This document shows, in pieces, positions 2,366 through 31,473 of a DNA stretch of 40,173 bases. Both the position numbers and the translations under genes were made by a program. The DNA comes from Gammaproteobacteria bacterium (GTDB taxonomy: Bacteria > Pseudomonadota > Gammaproteobacteria > S012-40): assembly GCA_029884425.1 (NCBI GenBank), contig JAOUHV010000025.1, positions 1 through 40,173 of the forward strand. Direction: 5' to 3'. The notes below the pieces were generated by a model. It searched no databases and was not told the origin of the DNA. It worked only from the letters and a program-made list of their open reading frames with translations. Position 1 is the first letter of the stretch. Every line of letters starts with the position of its first letter.

Positions 2366-2884
2366 CTAGAACAGGTCGATATCACCTTCGTCGTCAACCG
2401 TATCGGACAGAGCCTGCAGCGCTCGACCAATCGCTTCGTCTTCCGACAAACCTTGCAGCACCGCATCGAACAGCACGCGCTCATCCTTCATTGCCAACAC
2501 TGAGGTCAATTCAGCCGTGGCTCGCACGTCACCCACATCAAGAAAATGCTTGGCGTGCCTCAGTCGTTGCGAGACCCGATCATAAAACTGCAGCGCAACA
2601 ACCGTACTGGATATCATTGCCTGCGCCTCGCCCATGTGCTTGGCCAGCGAAGCCTGCGCTTTTTCATTGGCTGGCTGATCTTGCAATCTGGCAGCAGCCG
2701 ACTGAATATTCAACAATATCCCCTGTAACTGCGCGATACTCTGCGTCGCATTGGCCGAGGTCTGCTCGCCATCACGCACCGAGAATTCGATCCAGGCTTT
2801 GACTAGAGCAACAATCTTTGCGTCCACGCCTTCTTCGAAATGATGCAATTGTCCATCCTTTATCAAAACCTGGGTCACACTCAT
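2366..2884 (-). CDS. short CheZ-like protein (putative CheY-P phosphatase)
   Basis: A 172-residue, Cys-free, mostly helical protein. Start ATG 2884 has AAGGA eight bases upstream. Residues about 85-115 form a helix containing ALQFYDRVSQRL, where Asp102 and Gln106 have the D-x3-Q spacing of the CheZ active site (DLTGQ in E. coli). The protein ends in an acidic segment and DIDLF, recalling the acidic C-terminal CheY-binding tail of CheZ. It is shorter than enteric CheZ (about 214 residues). It lies 30 bases downstream of the HDOD gene on the same strand and is probably co-transcribed with it. No cheY or cheA is nearby. The motif and tail are seen in the sequence; phosphatase activity is inferred. 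It could instead be a non-enzymatic relative that binds receivers. Confidence 0.6.
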   Translation of the reverse strand: MSVTQVLIKDGQLHHFEEGVDAKIVALVKAWIEFSVRDGEQTSANATQSIAQLQGILLNIQSAAARLQDQPANEKAQASLAKHMGEAQAMISSTVVALQFYDRVSQRLRHAKHFLDVGDVRATAELTSVLAMKDERVLFDAVLQGLSEDEAIGRALQALSDTVDDEGDIDLF

Positions 2885-2914
2885 TGGAAAGTTCCTTAAG
2901 CTTAGACTATAGCA

Positions 2915-3796
2915 CTACAAACGTTGACGAGCCCCGGGAAGCAACAATTCCAATACCTCCAAAAACTGGAAAATGGCCTCGTGCAACATCGGCTTGATTC
3001 GCTCGGTTTCCAACCCCACCAGCGCCCATGCCTCGGCCTCGCATGCCGTATCCAATTCTTCTTCGTCACCTATTTCCAGCGCATGCGCCATAACGTTGGC
3101 CATGTGCACAATACTCACTTCCAGTTCATGCTGCTTTGTTTCGCGCGGGTTATGGTGATATTGCACCGCCGTCGCCAATGATTCCGACAAGCCCCAGTGG
3201 CGCAGCAGTTCCGCAGCCAGCTCACCATGATCAAACCCCAGCACCAACCGCTCTGCCGTCACCCCGTCATCCAACTGATGTTCATTTTCAACCGCCCATA
3301 TTTCATCGACTTGCTCTGGAAAACGGTGATAAATCACCAAACGGCCAATATCGTGCAGCAAACCAGCAACAAACAGCCGCTCGGGATGTAGCACGTTACA
3401 TTCGCGCGCCAGGATGCGCGCCAGTACGGCCGCGAAAATGCTGTGCCGCCAGAAGCTGGCCATGTTCACTTTATTGGCCGACAGCCCGGCAAACGTTTCC
3501 ACTGCTGTGGTTGCCCACACCATGTTCTGTAATTCTTTCAGGCCTATCATCAAAACCGCACGCGAAACGGTTTCAATTTTGGCCTCGAAGCCATACATCG
3601 GGCTGTTAACCAGCTTCAGCAAACGCAAGGTCAGCGCTGGATCCTTGCTGATAACATTGCCAATTTGATCTATGTCCGAGTTGGGATCATTGACGAGATC
3701 GTTAACGAGAAAACAAACTTCCGGAAGAGAAACCAGTCCATCCACACCGCGAACAAGCTCCTGCACCGAATTCGGAAACACCTTGCTCTCCGACAT
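2915..3796 (-). CDS. HDOD-domain signalling protein
   Basis: A 293-residue cytoplasmic protein made almost entirely of one HDOD domain (about residues 15-215). Hallmarks are SLPEVCFLVNDL, the ISKDPALTLRLLKLVNSP segment, FWRHSI (His118), LLHDIGRL (His148-Asp149), FDHGEL (His190) and QYHH (His214-215). Most metal-ligand positions of HD phosphohydrolases are therefore retained, although HDOD proteins generally have no shown catalytic activity and act as signalling or scaffold modules. Start ATG 3796 has an AGAGAGAG ribosome site. The gene heads a likely two-gene unit with the CheZ-like gene (30-base gap), suggesting a role near motility or chemotaxis, which is inference. Confidence 0.85.
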   Translation of the reverse strand: MSESKVFPNSVQELVRGVDGLVSLPEVCFLVNDLVNDPNSDIDQIGNVISKDPALTLRLLKLVNSPMYGFEAKIETVSRAVLMIGLKELQNMVWATTAVETFAGLSANKVNMASFWRHSIFAAVLARILARECNVLHPERLFVAGLLHDIGRLVIYHRFPEQVDEIWAVENEHQLDDGVTAERLVLGFDHGELAAELLRHWGLSESLATAVQYHHNPRETKQHELEVSIVHMANVMAHALEIGDEEELDTACEAEAWALVGLETERIKPMLHEAIFQFLEVLELLLPGARQRL

Positions 3797-4140: not shown

Positions 4141-4147
4141 GCCTTCC
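4125..4147 (+). terminator. terminator hairpin overlapping the micro-protein stop codon
   Basis: GGAAGGCTT (4125-4133), loop TCGTT, AAGCCTTCC (4139-4147): a perfect 9-bp stem followed by TATTTCT. It contains the TAA of the 36-residue ORF and touches the last base of the convergent purT, so it may act on both strands. The U tract is weak. Confidence 0.6.
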
Positions 4148-5343
4148 TATTTCTGTGGCCTCACTCTTGAGGCCGCAAGCTTTGCCCGCTCGCGACAATC
4201 TTCCACATCATTCCCGTAGGCCAGCGCCACTCCCATTCGACGACGCTCGAAAGATTCGGGCTTGCCGAACAGGCGTAAATCCGTGTTTTCCACCGCTAAT
4301 GCCTTGTCCACATCGGCAAAGTGAATCCCTTTTTCTTCCATGCCGCCGTAAATCACCGCACTGGCACCGGCGCTGATACACTGGGTTGAGACTGGCAAGC
4401 CCAGAATCGCGCGGGCGTGCAGTTCGAATTCATTTTGCCGCTGGGTCGCCATGGTCACCATGCCGGTGTCATGGGGACGGGGGCTGACTTCGCTAAACCA
4501 GACCTGGTCATCACGAACAAACAACTCCACCCCAAACAAGCCACGCCCGCCCAAAGCCTCGGTCACTTTATGCGCAATTTCCTGGGCACGCTTGAGCGCC
4601 GCCGGCGTCATCGGCTGCGGCTGCCAGCTTTCGACGTAATCACCGTGCTTTTGGATATGACCAACGGGATCACAGAAGTAGGTAGTCACTTCGCCTTTGG
4701 CATTCTTTGCCCGGACAGTCAGCAGGGTAATTTCAAAATCAAAATCGATCACGCCCTCGACGATTACTTTGCCGTGATTGACTCGCCCGCCCTGCATGGC
4801 GTAATTCCACGCGGTTTCAACGTCCTCAGGATTACGAATCATCGATTGCCCCTTGCCCGACGATGACATCACCGGCTTGACGATACAGGGGTAGCCAATG
4901 CCACCATCGATCGCCATTTGCAATTCGTTCAACGACTGGGCGAACGCATAAGTGGAAGTCGGCAATTCCAGTTCTTCGGCAGCCAGGCGACGGATGCCTT
5001 CACGGTTCATGGTCAATTGGGTGGCGCGTGCCGTGGGAATGACTTCAGCCACGCCCTCGGCCTCGATTTGCGCCAACACGTCGGTGGCAATGGCTTCGAT
5101 CTCGGGCACCACCAGATGAGGCTTTTCGGATTCGATCAACTGACGCAATGCCTGGGGATCAGACATATTGATGGCATACGCACGATGGGCAACCTGATGC
5201 CCTGGCGCATTTTCGTAACGGTCCACGGCGATGACTTCCACGCCCAGACGCTGCAGGGCAATGATCACTTCCTTGCCAAGCTCGCCGGCACCCAGCATCA
5301 TCACTTTGGTCGCCGATGGCGATAGTGGCGTTCCAATACGCAT
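4147..5343 (-). CDS. purT: formate-dependent phosphoribosylglycinamide formyltransferase PurT
   Basis: PurT makes formyl-GAR from GAR, formate and ATP, the folate-independent third step of purine synthesis. The frame is open further upstream, but the family N-terminus [20 protein letters not shown] begins at ATG 5343, which has GGGGGAG just upstream; this gives 398 residues, close to the usual 392. Visible parts are the N-terminal nucleotide-binding loop GAGELGKEV, the ATP-grasp core ([16 protein letters not shown], about residues 150-165) and the C-terminal [11 protein letters not shown]. It follows the glycosyltransferase gene on the same strand after 53 bases. Nothing is missing or broken. 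Confidence 0.96.
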
Positions 5344-5396
5344 ATGTTTCTCCCCCAAAATTTTTTGCAGGATAGTACGCCGATAGCCCGCCGGAA

Positions 5397-6476
5397 TCAA
5401 AAAAACTGCGCTAAATGATCAGCAATCAATCGGGCACCGCTCGGCTCGGGGATGGCGGGCTTGGGAGTGTTCAATACTTGCTCAATCGCGTCCCGCAGTT
5501 CGCCAGAAAAAAACTGCTCACGACTGATTTCTTGTGCCTGACCATGCCGCAGCAGCCAGTCGACAATGAATGGTTCCTCCGCCCAGTCGCCACGACACAC
5601 GAACAACACGGGTTTGCCATTGCAGACGGCCTCGGTGGTCGTGCCATAGCCGGGCTTGGTCACCACCAGATCGCAACTGGCCAGCAAATCGGTAAATGTC
5701 AGCAGACAATGCTGGGCACACAACACATCCGGCCGGTCACTGTGCACTAACCAGGACGCCACCCAGCGCACGCCATCAATACGCGGCCAGCGCTCCAACG
5801 GGATGGCGGTTTCTATTCCGCCGGGAACGATAAACACCAAACGCTCCCCCTCGCCCAAACCCCAATGGCAATTGAGCCATTCGCGCTGATTGCTTCCCAG
5901 CTTGGCCAGGGGTGGCACATCCACGCCATTGACCAAATCCGCCATAGCCATGGAGGGTTGCGGTTTGAAAAACCAGCGGGCGCGATTGTAGGCTTCCAGC
6001 ATTTGCTGATGAATAGCGCGACTATCGGCGGTTTCGGCAAAACAGTCCCGATAAATGTCCGCCCAATTGAGCGAACACATCGCCACCGACGCCAATCCCG
6101 CCTGATGCGCCCCGGCCAGGGTGAGATAGGGCGCATTCGCCAACACCAGATCCGGCTTGAGAGCGCGCAATCGTTGCGATTCTTCGGTCACCCGCTCGGC
6201 CCAGTGGCGGTGCCATTGGCGGTAGCGTTCAGCACTGGCTGAGTAATCGATATCCAGCGCAGAGGTCATGTCCATACCAAAGTCTGCAACCTCGGCCAGC
6301 ACCTGCACATCCTCACCCAAGCGGGATTTGACCAATGCCTCGGGTAATTTTGTCCGCAATGTAATGCGTAGCTGGGAATAACGCTCGCGAAGTTCGTTGA
6401 GCACCAGCGCGGTCTGGGCAAAATGGCCATAGCCGTGCGCCGACACCGTCGCCAGCAAATGAAACGGTGCCAACAT
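5397..6476 (-). CDS. MurG-like glycosyltransferase
   Basis: Start ATG 6476 is favoured because it overlaps the stop of the upstream gene as TAATG, implying translational coupling; the product then has 359 residues and begins [20 protein letters not shown]. That N-terminal G/H-rich loop after a beta strand and the C-terminal block [20 protein letters not shown], with a following RGDWAEEP, are the acceptor and nucleotide-sugar sites of GT-B enzymes related to MurG/family 28. Similar sequences form the N-terminal part of some sugar kinases. The sugar donor and acceptor are not apparent. Flanking genes are a coiled-coil protein upstream and purT downstream. No signal peptide; probably cytoplasmic or peripheral to the inner membrane. 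Confidence 0.75.
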
Positions 6477-7853: not shown

Positions 7854-8875
7854 CGTAACTTTCCTGTGGTCAACTCATACCGAGGCGCCACAACCTGATG
7901 AATCAACTTATTCAACGGTTGTAGCTCTACATAATCCTGTGTCACCTGCAACACATACCCCAAGGTTCGGGGAATATCTTTCAAATATCCGGGCTTGTTA
8001 TCCCGATGGTTAAGGCGGGCGAAAATGCCAATCGCTTTCATATGGCGCTGCACCCCCATCCAGTCAAACCAGCGGCGAAACGTACGACTATCAACGTCAC
8101 GCAACAACCCTTGCTCACTCAAGCGCAACCGATACGCTTCAGCCCATGCCTCGACTTGTGGCCTCGGCCAATCGACGTAGCAGTCACGCAGCAAGGACAC
8201 CAGGTCGTAAGTCACCGCGCCCACGACGGCATCCTGAAAATCCAGCACCCCCGGGTTGCCCTGATCCAATTTCATCAGATTGCGCGAATGATAATCGCGA
8301 TGCACCCAAACCTGAGGCTGCGCCAGCGCCGACTGCGCCAACTGCTCACTCACCTGAGCCAAGGCCGCCTGCTGATTGGCGTCCAGCATAATTCCCAAGT
8401 GTTTGCCCAAAAACCAGTCACGGAACAAATCCATTTCCCGTTGCAGCAACGCATAGTCATACGCCGGCAACGACAACGACGGCCTGGGCCCGGTCTGCAG
8501 ACGATACAACGCGTCCATGGCATCACCATACAAGGCATCGACCGTGCCAGGAGCCAACACCTGGGCATACTGCGTATCGCCCAAGTCCGATAGCAGCAGA
8601 AATCCGTTGCTCAAGTCTTCGCAGATAATCTCCGGCACGTGCAAACCTAGAGCTCCAAACGCCTTGGCGATACGCACAAACGGTGCGCAATCCTCCTTGT
8701 CCGGCGGCGCATCCATCGCAATTAAAGTGCGATCCGCCAGATGCACACGAAAATAGCGGCGAAAACTGGCGTCAGCTGAAGCCACGCTAATACGAAAGTC
8801 CGTCAACCCGGCAACTTCTTTTAACCATGATTGCAAGTGCTGCAAACGCAGATCAGACACGTCCCAACCTCTCAT
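7850..8875 (-). CDS. amgK: N-acetylmuramate/N-acetylglucosamine anomeric kinase AmgK
   Basis: A protein kinase-like (aminoglycoside phosphotransferase fold) enzyme that phosphorylates C1 of MurNAc or GlcNAc. The 341-residue frame starts at ATG 8875; a GTG five codons later (8860) has AGAGG seven bases upstream and may be the true start. Visible motifs: SFRRYFRV near residue 37, the hinge-like DLGDTQYAQ, catalytic HRDYHSRNLM (about residues 192-201) and the metal-binding DFQDAV. It is the first gene of the amgK-murU pair and is divergent from lptD across 138 bases. Confidence 0.9.
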   Translation of the reverse strand: MRGWDVSDLRLQHLQSWLKEVAGLTDFRISVASADASFRRYFRVHLADRTLIAMDAPPDKEDCAPFVRIAKAFGALGLHVPEIICEDLSNGFLLLSDLGDTQYAQVLAPGTVDALYGDAMDALYRLQTGPRPSLSLPAYDYALLQREMDLFRDWFLGKHLGIMLDANQQAALAQVSEQLAQSALAQPQVWVHRDYHSRNLMKLDQGNPGVLDFQDAVVGAVTYDLVSLLRDCYVDWPRPQVEAWAEAYRLRLSEQGLLRDVDSRTFRRWFDWMGVQRHMKAIGIFARLNHRDNKPGYLKDIPRTLGYVLQVTQDYVELQPLNKLIHQVVAPRYELTTGKLR

Positions 8876-9013
8876 TCCAATGTTGTTAATTCAAATTGCG
8901 TCACACATACTGGCCAAGATGCTAACATCCCAGCCAAGCAGCTCACCAGATGCCCTGCCCGACAAAATCACTTACAATGGCTTTTTATACAACCGTTTGC
9001 TGGCGTTTGACCT

Positions 9014-11146
9014 TTGACAAATAAACTCTCTGCCGTAAGCCTGTGGCTTAGCCTTGCAACTCTAGTTCCGTCTGCCACAAACGCAGCGCTGTGTGAGGAT
9101 GACGATCCGTTCCACCCCATTCCCATGCAGGCATTGCCCGCCGACAAAATTGTACTGCAATCCAATGATGGATATTCCCAGGATGGTCTGTATCAATTTT
9201 CCGGCCGGGTGCTCATGCAGCATGAAAACCAGCTGCTGCAAGCCGACGGCGCCCAGTTCGATGAAAAAAATCAACGCCTCCAGGCCAACGGCAATGTGCA
9301 GTTCCAGGTGCCCGGCCTGATTTCCCGTGGCGACGGCGCCCTGCTGCAACTCGACGAACACCGCGGCATCGTCAACGAATCACGCTACTTGCTCGAATAC
9401 ACCGGCGGCACCGGCCACGCAAAAAAAATTGAAGTCATCGGCGAAGTCGCCGAGCTGCAAGGCGCCAGTTACACCACCTGTCCAGGCACGCAACCCGCGT
9501 GGCAATTGGCGGCACAATCCATCACCCTGGACCGAGCCAACAACGAAGGCATCGCCCGCCACGTCGTGCTGCAACTGGGACAAGTGCCGGTCTTTTACGT
9601 CCCCTGGGCCAGCTTTGCGCTGCAAGGTCGTAAAACCGGCTTCCTCACCCCGGCACTGGGCTACTCGCGTATTCGCGGTGCGGACATCACCCTGCCGTAT
9701 TATCTCAATCTGGCCCCAGCCCAGGATGCCACCCTGTACCCACGCCTGATAGAAAATCGCGGCCCGCAACTGGGCGGCGAATATCGCTATCTGACGGCGA
9801 GCAGTGCCGGCCAGGTGTTCAGCGAATATCTTCAGGACGATCAACTGTACGGAGACAATCGCTCGCTGTTTTCATTCAAGCACCGCGCCCAACCTAATGA
9901 CCACTGGAGCTACAGCACGCAACTGGAGCAAGTCAGCGACCGCGATTATTTCAGCGACCTGGGCAGCAATCTCAGCACCAGCAGTCAGACACAACTGGAG
10001 CGCAATCTGCGCACTCAGTGGCGTGGTAAGAACTGGTGGGCCAGCGCAATGCTGCAAGACTACCAAATGCTCCGCAGCCACACCGCACCACACCGCCGCC
10101 TGCCGCAGCTGCAATATCGCCATCAAAGTCAGCACCGCTGGCTGCAAACCGAATTGCTCGGCGAATACAGTTATTTTCAGCACGACACACTGCTCAATGG
10201 CCATCGATTGCTGGTCGAGCCTGTTTTGACCACCGGCTATGATTCGCCCGGCGCCTACCTGCAGCCACGGCTGCGACTGCGCCACAACCGGTATTGGCTA
10301 CAGGACCAGCCGGACGACGGCGGCACCAATGCGGTGTTCAGTCTGGATTCGGGTCTGCGCTTTATCCGTCACGGCCAGCGCATCGACCAGACCCTGGAAC
10401 CGCGCCTGTTCTACACCTACAGCCCGTACCGCGACCAGCACTTGCAACCCATTTTCGATACCGGCGCACTGGATTTGAGTTTTGCCCAATTGTTCCGCGA
10501 CTTCCGCTACATTGGCGGCGATCGCATCGGTGACGAAAACCGTCTGAGTACCGGCCTGAGTTCCAGCTTTGTCCGTCAAACTGACGGCCGACAATTGCTG
10601 CGCCTCAGTCTGGCCCATGCCCGCTATTTCGCAGATCACCGCACCCAACTGCCCGCTGAGGAACCAACACTGGCGGGTGATAGACGTATCGCCGGCGAAA
10701 TTGCCAGTGAGTTTTTACCCGACTGGAGCTTTGCCACTACCCTGTTTCAACGCACCACCGATCGTCATCCGGACAAGCTGGCCACACGACTGAACTACGA
10801 CGGCGATCGGCAGGGCCTGGATTTGTCTGCCCGCTATCGGCAGAATTTGCTCAAACAAGTGGGTGCCGCCGGCTATGTTGAGCTTGGCCCCCATTGGCAA
10901 CTGGCGGCCAAGTGGACATATTCGCTGCAATATGAGCGCAGCAATGAAGCGGTCATCGGCGTACAATACCTCAGCTGCTGTTGGCGGCTGCGCACCGTTG
11001 CGCAACAATTCATCAAAAATGCCCAGGGCGAAACCGATCGCAGCATCGGTGTGGAAATCGAACTCACCGGACTAGCGACGGTCGGACGTAAAACCGAAGA
11101 CCGTCTGTCACGGGAAATCATGGGATACAAGAGCGAAGGTTTTTAA
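9014..11146 (+). CDS. lptD: LPS-assembly protein LptD
   Basis: The outer-membrane beta barrel that places LPS in the outer leaflet, together with LptE. A TTG start at 9014 is implied: an in-frame TGA lies two codons upstream, and the signal peptide (SLWLSLATLVPSATNA) begins at once; no ATG precedes it. The 710-residue product has an OstA/LptA-like periplasmic domain (about residues 45-140) and a C-terminal barrel (about 190-700). The Cys arrangement is that of E. coli LptD: one near the mature N-terminus (ALCEDD), one in TTCPGTQ and an adjacent pair in LSCCWRL, which form the inter-domain disulfides. First gene of lptD-surA-pdxA-rsmA; surA starts six bases after it. Confidence 0.97.
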   Translation: MTNKLSAVSLWLSLATLVPSATNAALCEDDDPFHPIPMQALPADKIVLQSNDGYSQDGLYQFSGRVLMQHENQLLQADGAQFDEKNQRLQANGNVQFQVPGLISRGDGALLQLDEHRGIVNESRYLLEYTGGTGHAKKIEVIGEVAELQGASYTTCPGTQPAWQLAAQSITLDRANNEGIARHVVLQLGQVPVFYVPWASFALQGRKTGFLTPALGYSRIRGADITLPYYLNLAPAQDATLYPRLIENRGPQLGGEYRYLTASSAGQVFSEYLQDDQLYGDNRSLFSFKHRAQPNDHWSYSTQLEQVSDRDYFSDLGSNLSTSSQTQLERNLRTQWRGKNWWASAMLQDYQMLRSHTAPHRRLPQLQYRHQSQHRWLQTELLGEYSYFQHDTLLNGHRLLVEPVLTTGYDSPGAYLQPRLRLRHNRYWLQDQPDDGGTNAVFSLDSGLRFIRHGQRIDQTLEPRLFYTYSPYRDQHLQPIFDTGALDLSFAQLFRDFRYIGGDRIGDENRLSTGLSSSFVRQTDGRQLLRLSLAHARYFADHRTQLPAEEPTLAGDRRIAGEIASEFLPDWSFATTLFQRTTDRHPDKLATRLNYDGDRQGLDLSARYRQNLLKQVGAAGYVELGPHWQLAAKWTYSLQYERSNEAVIGVQYLSCCWRLRTVAQQFIKNAQGETDRSIGVEIELTGLATVGRKTEDRLSREIMGYKSEGF

Positions 11147-31047: not shown

Positions 31048-31473
31048 TTACTGATTGCCAGGGGATCCCAGCAACTGACTAACCGTATCGAGAAACTCGC
31101 CCATGTCCAGCGGCTTGGTAAAAAAGGCTTTAATGCCTATAGCCAGCGCCGCCTCCTTGTCGATAGTGGCACTAAACCCGGTACACAGAATAACCGGAAA
31201 ACCCGGCTTCAATCGCATAACCGTCATTGCCAGTTCACTACCACTCATCCCTGGCATGGTTTGATCCGTCACCATCAAACTGTACGCCTGCGGATCACGC
31301 TCAAACGCGGCCAATGCATCGCGAGGATCATGAAACACCTCCGACACAAAGCCATCGACTTTGAGCAACTCTTGTATCAGCTTGGCAACTGTCAGTTCGT
31401 CATCAACCACCATGACGCGCGTGCTCAAAGAATCCACCACTTCAATGCTCCAAAAAAAACAGGACTGGGTCAC
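31048..31473 (-). CDS. stand-alone CheY-like receiver protein
   Basis: A single REC domain with no output domain. The longest frame begins at GTG 31473 (141 residues); a GTG at 31440 (130 residues), with GGAG seven bases upstream, fits the domain better. Conserved sites: acidic DDE in VMVVDDE, phospho-acceptor Asp in MVTDQTMPG, Thr in CTGFS and Lys in FTKPL. The sequence resembles the C-terminal receivers of hybrid kinases of the HDFNN type rather than CheY. Such a partner could serve the CHASE3 kinase at 25062 or the MASE3 hybrid at 32913; both are within 6 kb, but no gene pairing shows which. It could also be a target of the CheZ-like protein. Confidence 0.88.
   Translation of the reverse strand: MTQSCFFWSIEVVDSLSTRVMVVDDELTVAKLIQELLKVDGFVSEVFHDPRDALAAFERDPQAYSLMVTDQTMPGMSGSELAMTVMRLKPGFPVILCTGFSATIDKEAALAIGIKAFFTKPLDMGEFLDTVSQLLGSPGNQ

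Follow-up and report, generated by a model that had tools for sequence, protein, structure and literature searches.

CheZ is a long helical hairpin that dimerizes into a four-helix bundle. In the Escherichia coli protein, Asp143 and Gln147 form the catalytic pair. The proteins CheC, CheX and FliY do the same job on phosphorylated CheY (CheY-P) using an E-x3-N motif and an alpha/beta fold. To our knowledge, no biochemical function has been agreed upon for the HDOD domain. CheZ features an AXXFQ motif that is paired with DXXXQ (PMC7750401). Swimming phenotypes are described for the HDOD proteins PSPTO_4229 (PMC11813219) and PFL_0554 and PFL_5871 (PMC11004494). These motility-linked proteins have the HDOD domain in common with the HDOD protein studied here and are of similar size; a CheZ-like partner is not mentioned in the passages about them. 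No paper joining HDOD with a CheZ-like partner was found in the open-licence literature, a weak sign of novelty.

The locus described below lies in a 40,173-nucleotide window (the whole stretch of DNA that was analyzed) from a gammaproteobacterial genome. It holds a minus-strand pair of genes, the first of which (2915-3796) is a 293-aa ORF for an HDOD-domain protein and the second (2366-2884) a 172-aa ORF for a CheZ-like protein (CheZL) that belongs to no Pfam or NCBIfam family. Taken as a whole, we think it likely that the latter is a remote phosphatase of the CheZ superfamily, from a family used in three ways, and that it is under HDOD control here.

The gene pair and its surroundings

The two ORFs are on the same strand, separated by 30 bp, with the CheZ-like gene downstream. 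Both begin with ATG, and AAGGA is located a few bases 5' of this codon in the 172-aa ORF. The product of 2915-3796 was matched by PF08668 (E 6.6e-61; 205.7 bits compared to a cut-off of 22.9); by this match, its identity as an HDOD protein is certain. The original observation of an HDOD gene paired with a gene for a 172-aa protein is confirmed. No che gene is present in the operon.

Upstream of the pair is a conserved neighbor, purT (4147-5400, minus strand; TIGR01142, E 8e-172). Counting this one, three GTDB families have purT next to CheZ-like genes, whether HDOD is present or not; the other two are represented by L055/L057 and L126. On the other side, a gene for an AurF-type diiron oxygenase (1348-2286; PF11583, E 1e-44) is convergent with the pair, and L030 and L033 have similar-looking genes in the corresponding position.

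An unnamed family with invariant residues

When whole genomes were searched with the single protein, relatives were found in 13 of 56 sampled genomes. A profile search of whole genomes was positive in 72 of the 369 genomes of the class, a count that takes in chemoreceptors bearing the domain. As judged from these searches, the 172-aa protein is a member of a widespread, unnamed CheZ-like family. It is indeed shorter than CheZ, as had been pointed out; however, 150-220 aa is the usual length in this family.

Pfam and NCBIfam scans of the 172-aa protein and its relatives returned only chance coiled-coil matches, none above cut-off. PF04344 (CheZ) gave no match to the window protein at E<=10, and the 25 families listed for the 17 members aligned (the window protein and 16 relatives) did not include CheZ. 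Unlike CheZ, the family falls below every curated cut-off, and curated CheZ membership fails because the window protein misses that of PF04344. Membership in CheC/CheX/FliY was not found either: there was no Pfam match, and the window protein has D-x3-Q instead of E-x3-N and an all-helical model instead of an alpha/beta fold.

The codons from Asp102 to Gln106 (2567-2581, minus strand) specify the D-x3-Q motif within A97-L-Q-F100-Y-D102-R-V-S-Q106-R107-L-R-H110, and the C-terminal peptide GDIDLF is encoded at 2369-2386 (minus strand). The predicted residue pair and protein end are therefore present, and they go beyond chance: among 45 distinct stand-alone relatives, D102, Q106 and F172 were each found in 45/45. 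Nearly as constant were Q99 and F100 (44/45 each), H110 (43/45) and R107 (42/45), and G145 was near-invariant. The family consensus for the end is acidic-[IV]-E-L-F, and a second conserved block reads Y/F-T-M-[ED]-[ED]-[ED]-R.

Predicted structure

An AlphaFold2 model of the 172-aa protein was calculated as a monomer from an eight-sequence input. The mean pLDDT was 78.6, with block means of about 82-94 across residues 21-110. The model features a long hairpin (helices 20-69 and 74-98/100-117) followed by three short helices, and its ends are disordered. The D-x3-Q pair is placed in helix 100-117, as had been proposed. On a helical wheel, a single polar strip at 80-220 degrees contains D102, Q99, Q106, H110, R103 and R107 and faces away from a hydrophobic side composed of A97, F100, V104, L108 and L115. 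D102 and Q106 are 40 degrees apart and share this conserved polar face; the original prediction would have been contradicted had they been on different ones. Since the strip is invariant, it is as expected of an active or binding face, not of a buried core.

This arrangement (hairpin, linker and C-terminal segment) is consistent with that of the CheZ monomer. A fold search of the PDB was unspecific, with CheZ (1kmi) at rank 49 and E 0.57; because the comparison cannot tell long hairpins apart, the modeled fold is consistent with CheZ and does not prove a relationship. A sequence profile search of the PDB gave no match below E 0.03.

Homology to CheZ

Profiles were compared using hhalign, and the E-values quoted are those of single pair comparisons. 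The stand-alone family matched alphaproteobacterial CheZ with E 2e-5 (reversed, 0.039), and a combined profile, made of the stand-alone family and the C-terminal domains fused to chemoreceptors, did so with E 4e-7 (reversed, 0.02); D and Q were in register in both. The stand-alone family compared to gammaproteobacterial CheZ alone was not significant (E 0.17-0.25). The stand-alone family and the chemoreceptor-fused domain matched one another with E 7e-16, and the latter matched gammaproteobacterial CheZ with E 5e-6, FQDRVSQIL being aligned on FQDITGQII. When the combined profile was compared to gammaproteobacterial CheZ, the alignment covered 114 columns along the hairpin with a score of 31.9, and the maximum in 60 column shuffles was 22.1. 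Sub-threshold matches of the Pfam CheZ model were obtained to two fused copies (L004, 1.3e-5; L109, 5.7e-4). In the suggested check with CheZ and CheX profiles, neither gave a Pfam match to the window protein, and profile-profile comparison linked its family to CheZ.

The likeness to CheZ (PF04344), especially to alphaproteobacterial CheZ such as that of A. caulinodans (PMC7750401), resides in A-x2-F and D-x3-Q on one face. In the stand-alone family, A-x2-F adjoins D-x3-Q, with position 97 being A in 28/45 and G in 10/45. The Gln of AXXFQ is replaced by Tyr or Phe in this family, and FQ is retained in most of the chemoreceptor-fused copies. Both CheZ and, according to its model, the window protein are helical hairpins, and both have an acidic C-terminus (often DIDALF in alphaproteobacterial CheZ; GDIDLF here). 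The family differs from CheZ at the linker, in place of which it has short helices and a conserved M-[KED]-[DE]-E-R block. It also differs in its company, being found as a partner of HDOD or as part of a chemoreceptor and not always beside cheY/cheA.

Relatives in chemotaxis operons and chemoreceptors

About 15 members are located within che gene clusters. Twelve of them are directly 5' of cheR on the same strand (L017/L043, L065, L066, L075, L076, L118, L121-L125 and L127), often preceded by chemoreceptor and STAS genes and followed, past cheR, by cheD and cheB. A CheY-like gene adjoins CheZL in L028, where CheZL is between cheY and cheD, and in L116. In L117, CheZL follows cheD-cheA (the name cheA was read from the sequence), and in L190, from another class, the order is cheA-STAS-ParA-CheZL.

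The domain was also found at the C-terminus of chemoreceptors of ~400 aa (L004/L046, in this genome, and L095-L114). A motif of the F-x-D-x3-Q type is retained in 21/21 of these fused copies, and in 18 of the 21 loci a receiver (CheY-like) gene is immediately downstream on the same strand. The fused copies share three motifs with the stand-alone family (LQFQDRVSQIL, a Y-[TA]-M-x-[ED]-[EQ]-R block and an acidic tail, here ending in FF); they differ in being joined to a chemoreceptor signaling domain and in having a CheY-like gene next to them. On contig 16 of this genome, the order is chemoreceptor-CheZL, CheY, STAS, CheA, chemoreceptor, CheW, CheW, CheR and CheB (the names other than those of CheA and the receiver were read from the sequence). 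According to its published description, VC1394 of Vibrio cholerae resembles the fused chemoreceptors in topology and position (PMC7534058). No description of chemoreceptors fused to a CheZ-like domain was found in the open-licence literature.

Three uses of the family emerge: an additional gene in che operons, a C-terminal domain of chemoreceptors and a companion to an HDOD protein. A chemotaxis phosphatase family absent from current profile libraries would explain why many gammaproteobacterial che operons hold a gene with no annotation and why an unannotated tail recurs on chemoreceptors encoded beside CheY.

Three long proteins (1,100-1,200 aa) from another class of the phylum (L187:2630-5980, L188:2938-6537 and L191:2638-6234) have a C-terminal stretch that matches the CheZ-like profile. 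Downstream of each come a receiver-like gene and a CheA gene (the latter checked with Pfam in L187). Pfam gave no match to the long protein of L187.

The C-terminal tail

The DIDLF end had been offered as a sign of CheY binding. The tail is acidic in the family; however, CheD proteins of the class end alike, in [GS]-x-[IV]-[DE]-LF, both in genomes that have the CheZ-like family and in those that lack it. The tail of the contig-16 CheD of this genome is GDVELF, and nearly all of the gammaproteobacterial CheD proteins that were read (L186:6550-7176; L194-L223) end in G-x-[IV]-[DE]-L-F. Because CheD proteins have this ending, a tail of the DIELF type was dropped as a CheZ-specific mark of CheY binding, and it is probably a docking tag shared by chemosensory proteins. 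Its presence puts the window protein among these and does not single out CheY as the binder.

Proposed mechanism

Homology and context speak for a CheZ-type interpretation of the 172-aa protein, the evidence being the invariant D-x3-Q, the profile homology to CheZ, the hairpin model and the chemosensory company. Weighing against it are the missing PF04344 match, the non-significant comparison to gammaproteobacterial CheZ alone, the unspecific PDB fold search, the tail shared with CheD, the operon devoid of che genes and the full CheZ that the genome already carries. On balance, this part of the original prediction stands; the phosphatase activity that went with it is putative. The family probably switches off chemotaxis-type signal proteins. 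In the proposed mechanism, the 172-aa protein would act as a dimeric helical-hairpin phosphatase that accelerates dephosphorylation of a CheY-type receiver. Taking the roles of Asp143 and Gln147 in E. coli CheZ, Asp102 would touch the receiver's conserved Lys/Mg2+ site and Gln106 would hold the attacking water in place. The HDOD protein most likely controls the phosphatase by binding or recruiting it, such that a signal sensed by HDOD would change the phosphorylation level of one of the cell's chemosensory CheY proteins.

The protein could instead be an adaptor with the CheZ fold and no phosphatase activity, whose D-x3-Q face only binds a receiver or array component and tethers HDOD to chemosensory arrays. 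The conserved strip is broader than the D/Q pair (Q99, R103, Q106, R107 and H110), the Y/F-T-M block and the docking-like tail point to binding functions, and CheD, itself no CheZ, has the tail as well. D and Q are nevertheless strictly invariant and aligned with the catalytic pair of CheZ, a pattern that is difficult to account for if no chemistry is involved, and we regard the adaptor as unlikely compared to a phosphatase.

Pairing with HDOD

An HDOD gene followed by a co-directional CheZL gene was found in six genomes of the GTDB family (the window, L006, L007, L008, L009 and L011), with two tandem CheZL copies after HDOD in L008. In L020, which also belongs to this GTDB family, the HDOD gene is convergent with CheZL. 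In other GTDB families, HDOD is divergent from CheZL in L051 and L126, and an EAL-HDOD gene overlaps CheZL in L058; in L028, HDOD is two genes from CheZL. With about 4-16 HDOD genes per genome, HDOD was the immediate neighbor at three of roughly 41 loci outside the GTDB family (P of about 0.002-0.01 in an approximate binomial calculation).

These arrangements bear on the idea that the adjacency has no function, the two genes being merely neighbors in the purT region and the CheZ-like protein acting alone on the flagellar CheY. Because purT is beside HDOD-less CheZ-like genes in L055 and L057, the location may be ancestral. The spacing within the GTDB family is nonetheless close and co-directional (-16 to 115 bp), and HDOD recurs beside CheZL elsewhere in other arrangements (L051, L058 and L126); we judge a meaningless adjacency to be unlikely as well.

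The recurrent pairing hints at a job for HDOD. Tentatively, HDOD proteins in at least some bacteria may control a dedicated CheZ-type phosphatase, tuning the phosphorylation level of a chemosensory receiver, and thus motility, independently of chemoreceptor signals. If this were true, the HDOD domain would gain a biochemical output. The pairing offers a direct test of the role of HDOD, several HDOD proteins being described as altering swimming (PMC11813219, PMC11004494), and a co-directional gene for a putative receiver phosphatase is a concrete candidate mechanism for such effects.

Most of the HD-type histidines are kept in the partner HDOD genes (including 2915-3796), with HE for HD in L034, and the usual last Asp is Asn or Ala in most; such losses make enzymatic activity doubtful. 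In L031, tandem duplicate CheZ-like genes (8063-8707 and 8761-9369) are behind a single HDOD gene, and both have D-x3-Q and the IELF tail.

The target receiver

This genome has three CheA genes and already carries a full canonical CheZ, and a chemosensory CheY is therefore the probable target of the 172-aa protein. The non-chemotaxis target of the original prediction is unproven given these genes and the chemoreceptor that bears the same domain and is followed by a receiver. The particular candidate named, a lone receiver at 31048-31473, is genuine (PF00072, E 1.4e-20), and the HDOD-CheZL pair is outside any che operon; however, this receiver is 28 kb from the pair, none of its kind is alongside the pair in relatives, and CheZ-like members with informative neighbors are mostly among chemosensory genes, such that the link was rejected for want of a conserved neighborhood and a non-chemotaxis receiver as the target is very improbable.

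A second stand-alone CheZ-like paralogue is present in the same genome (L002:1441-1974; G000:C4:44931-45401), also outside any che operon.
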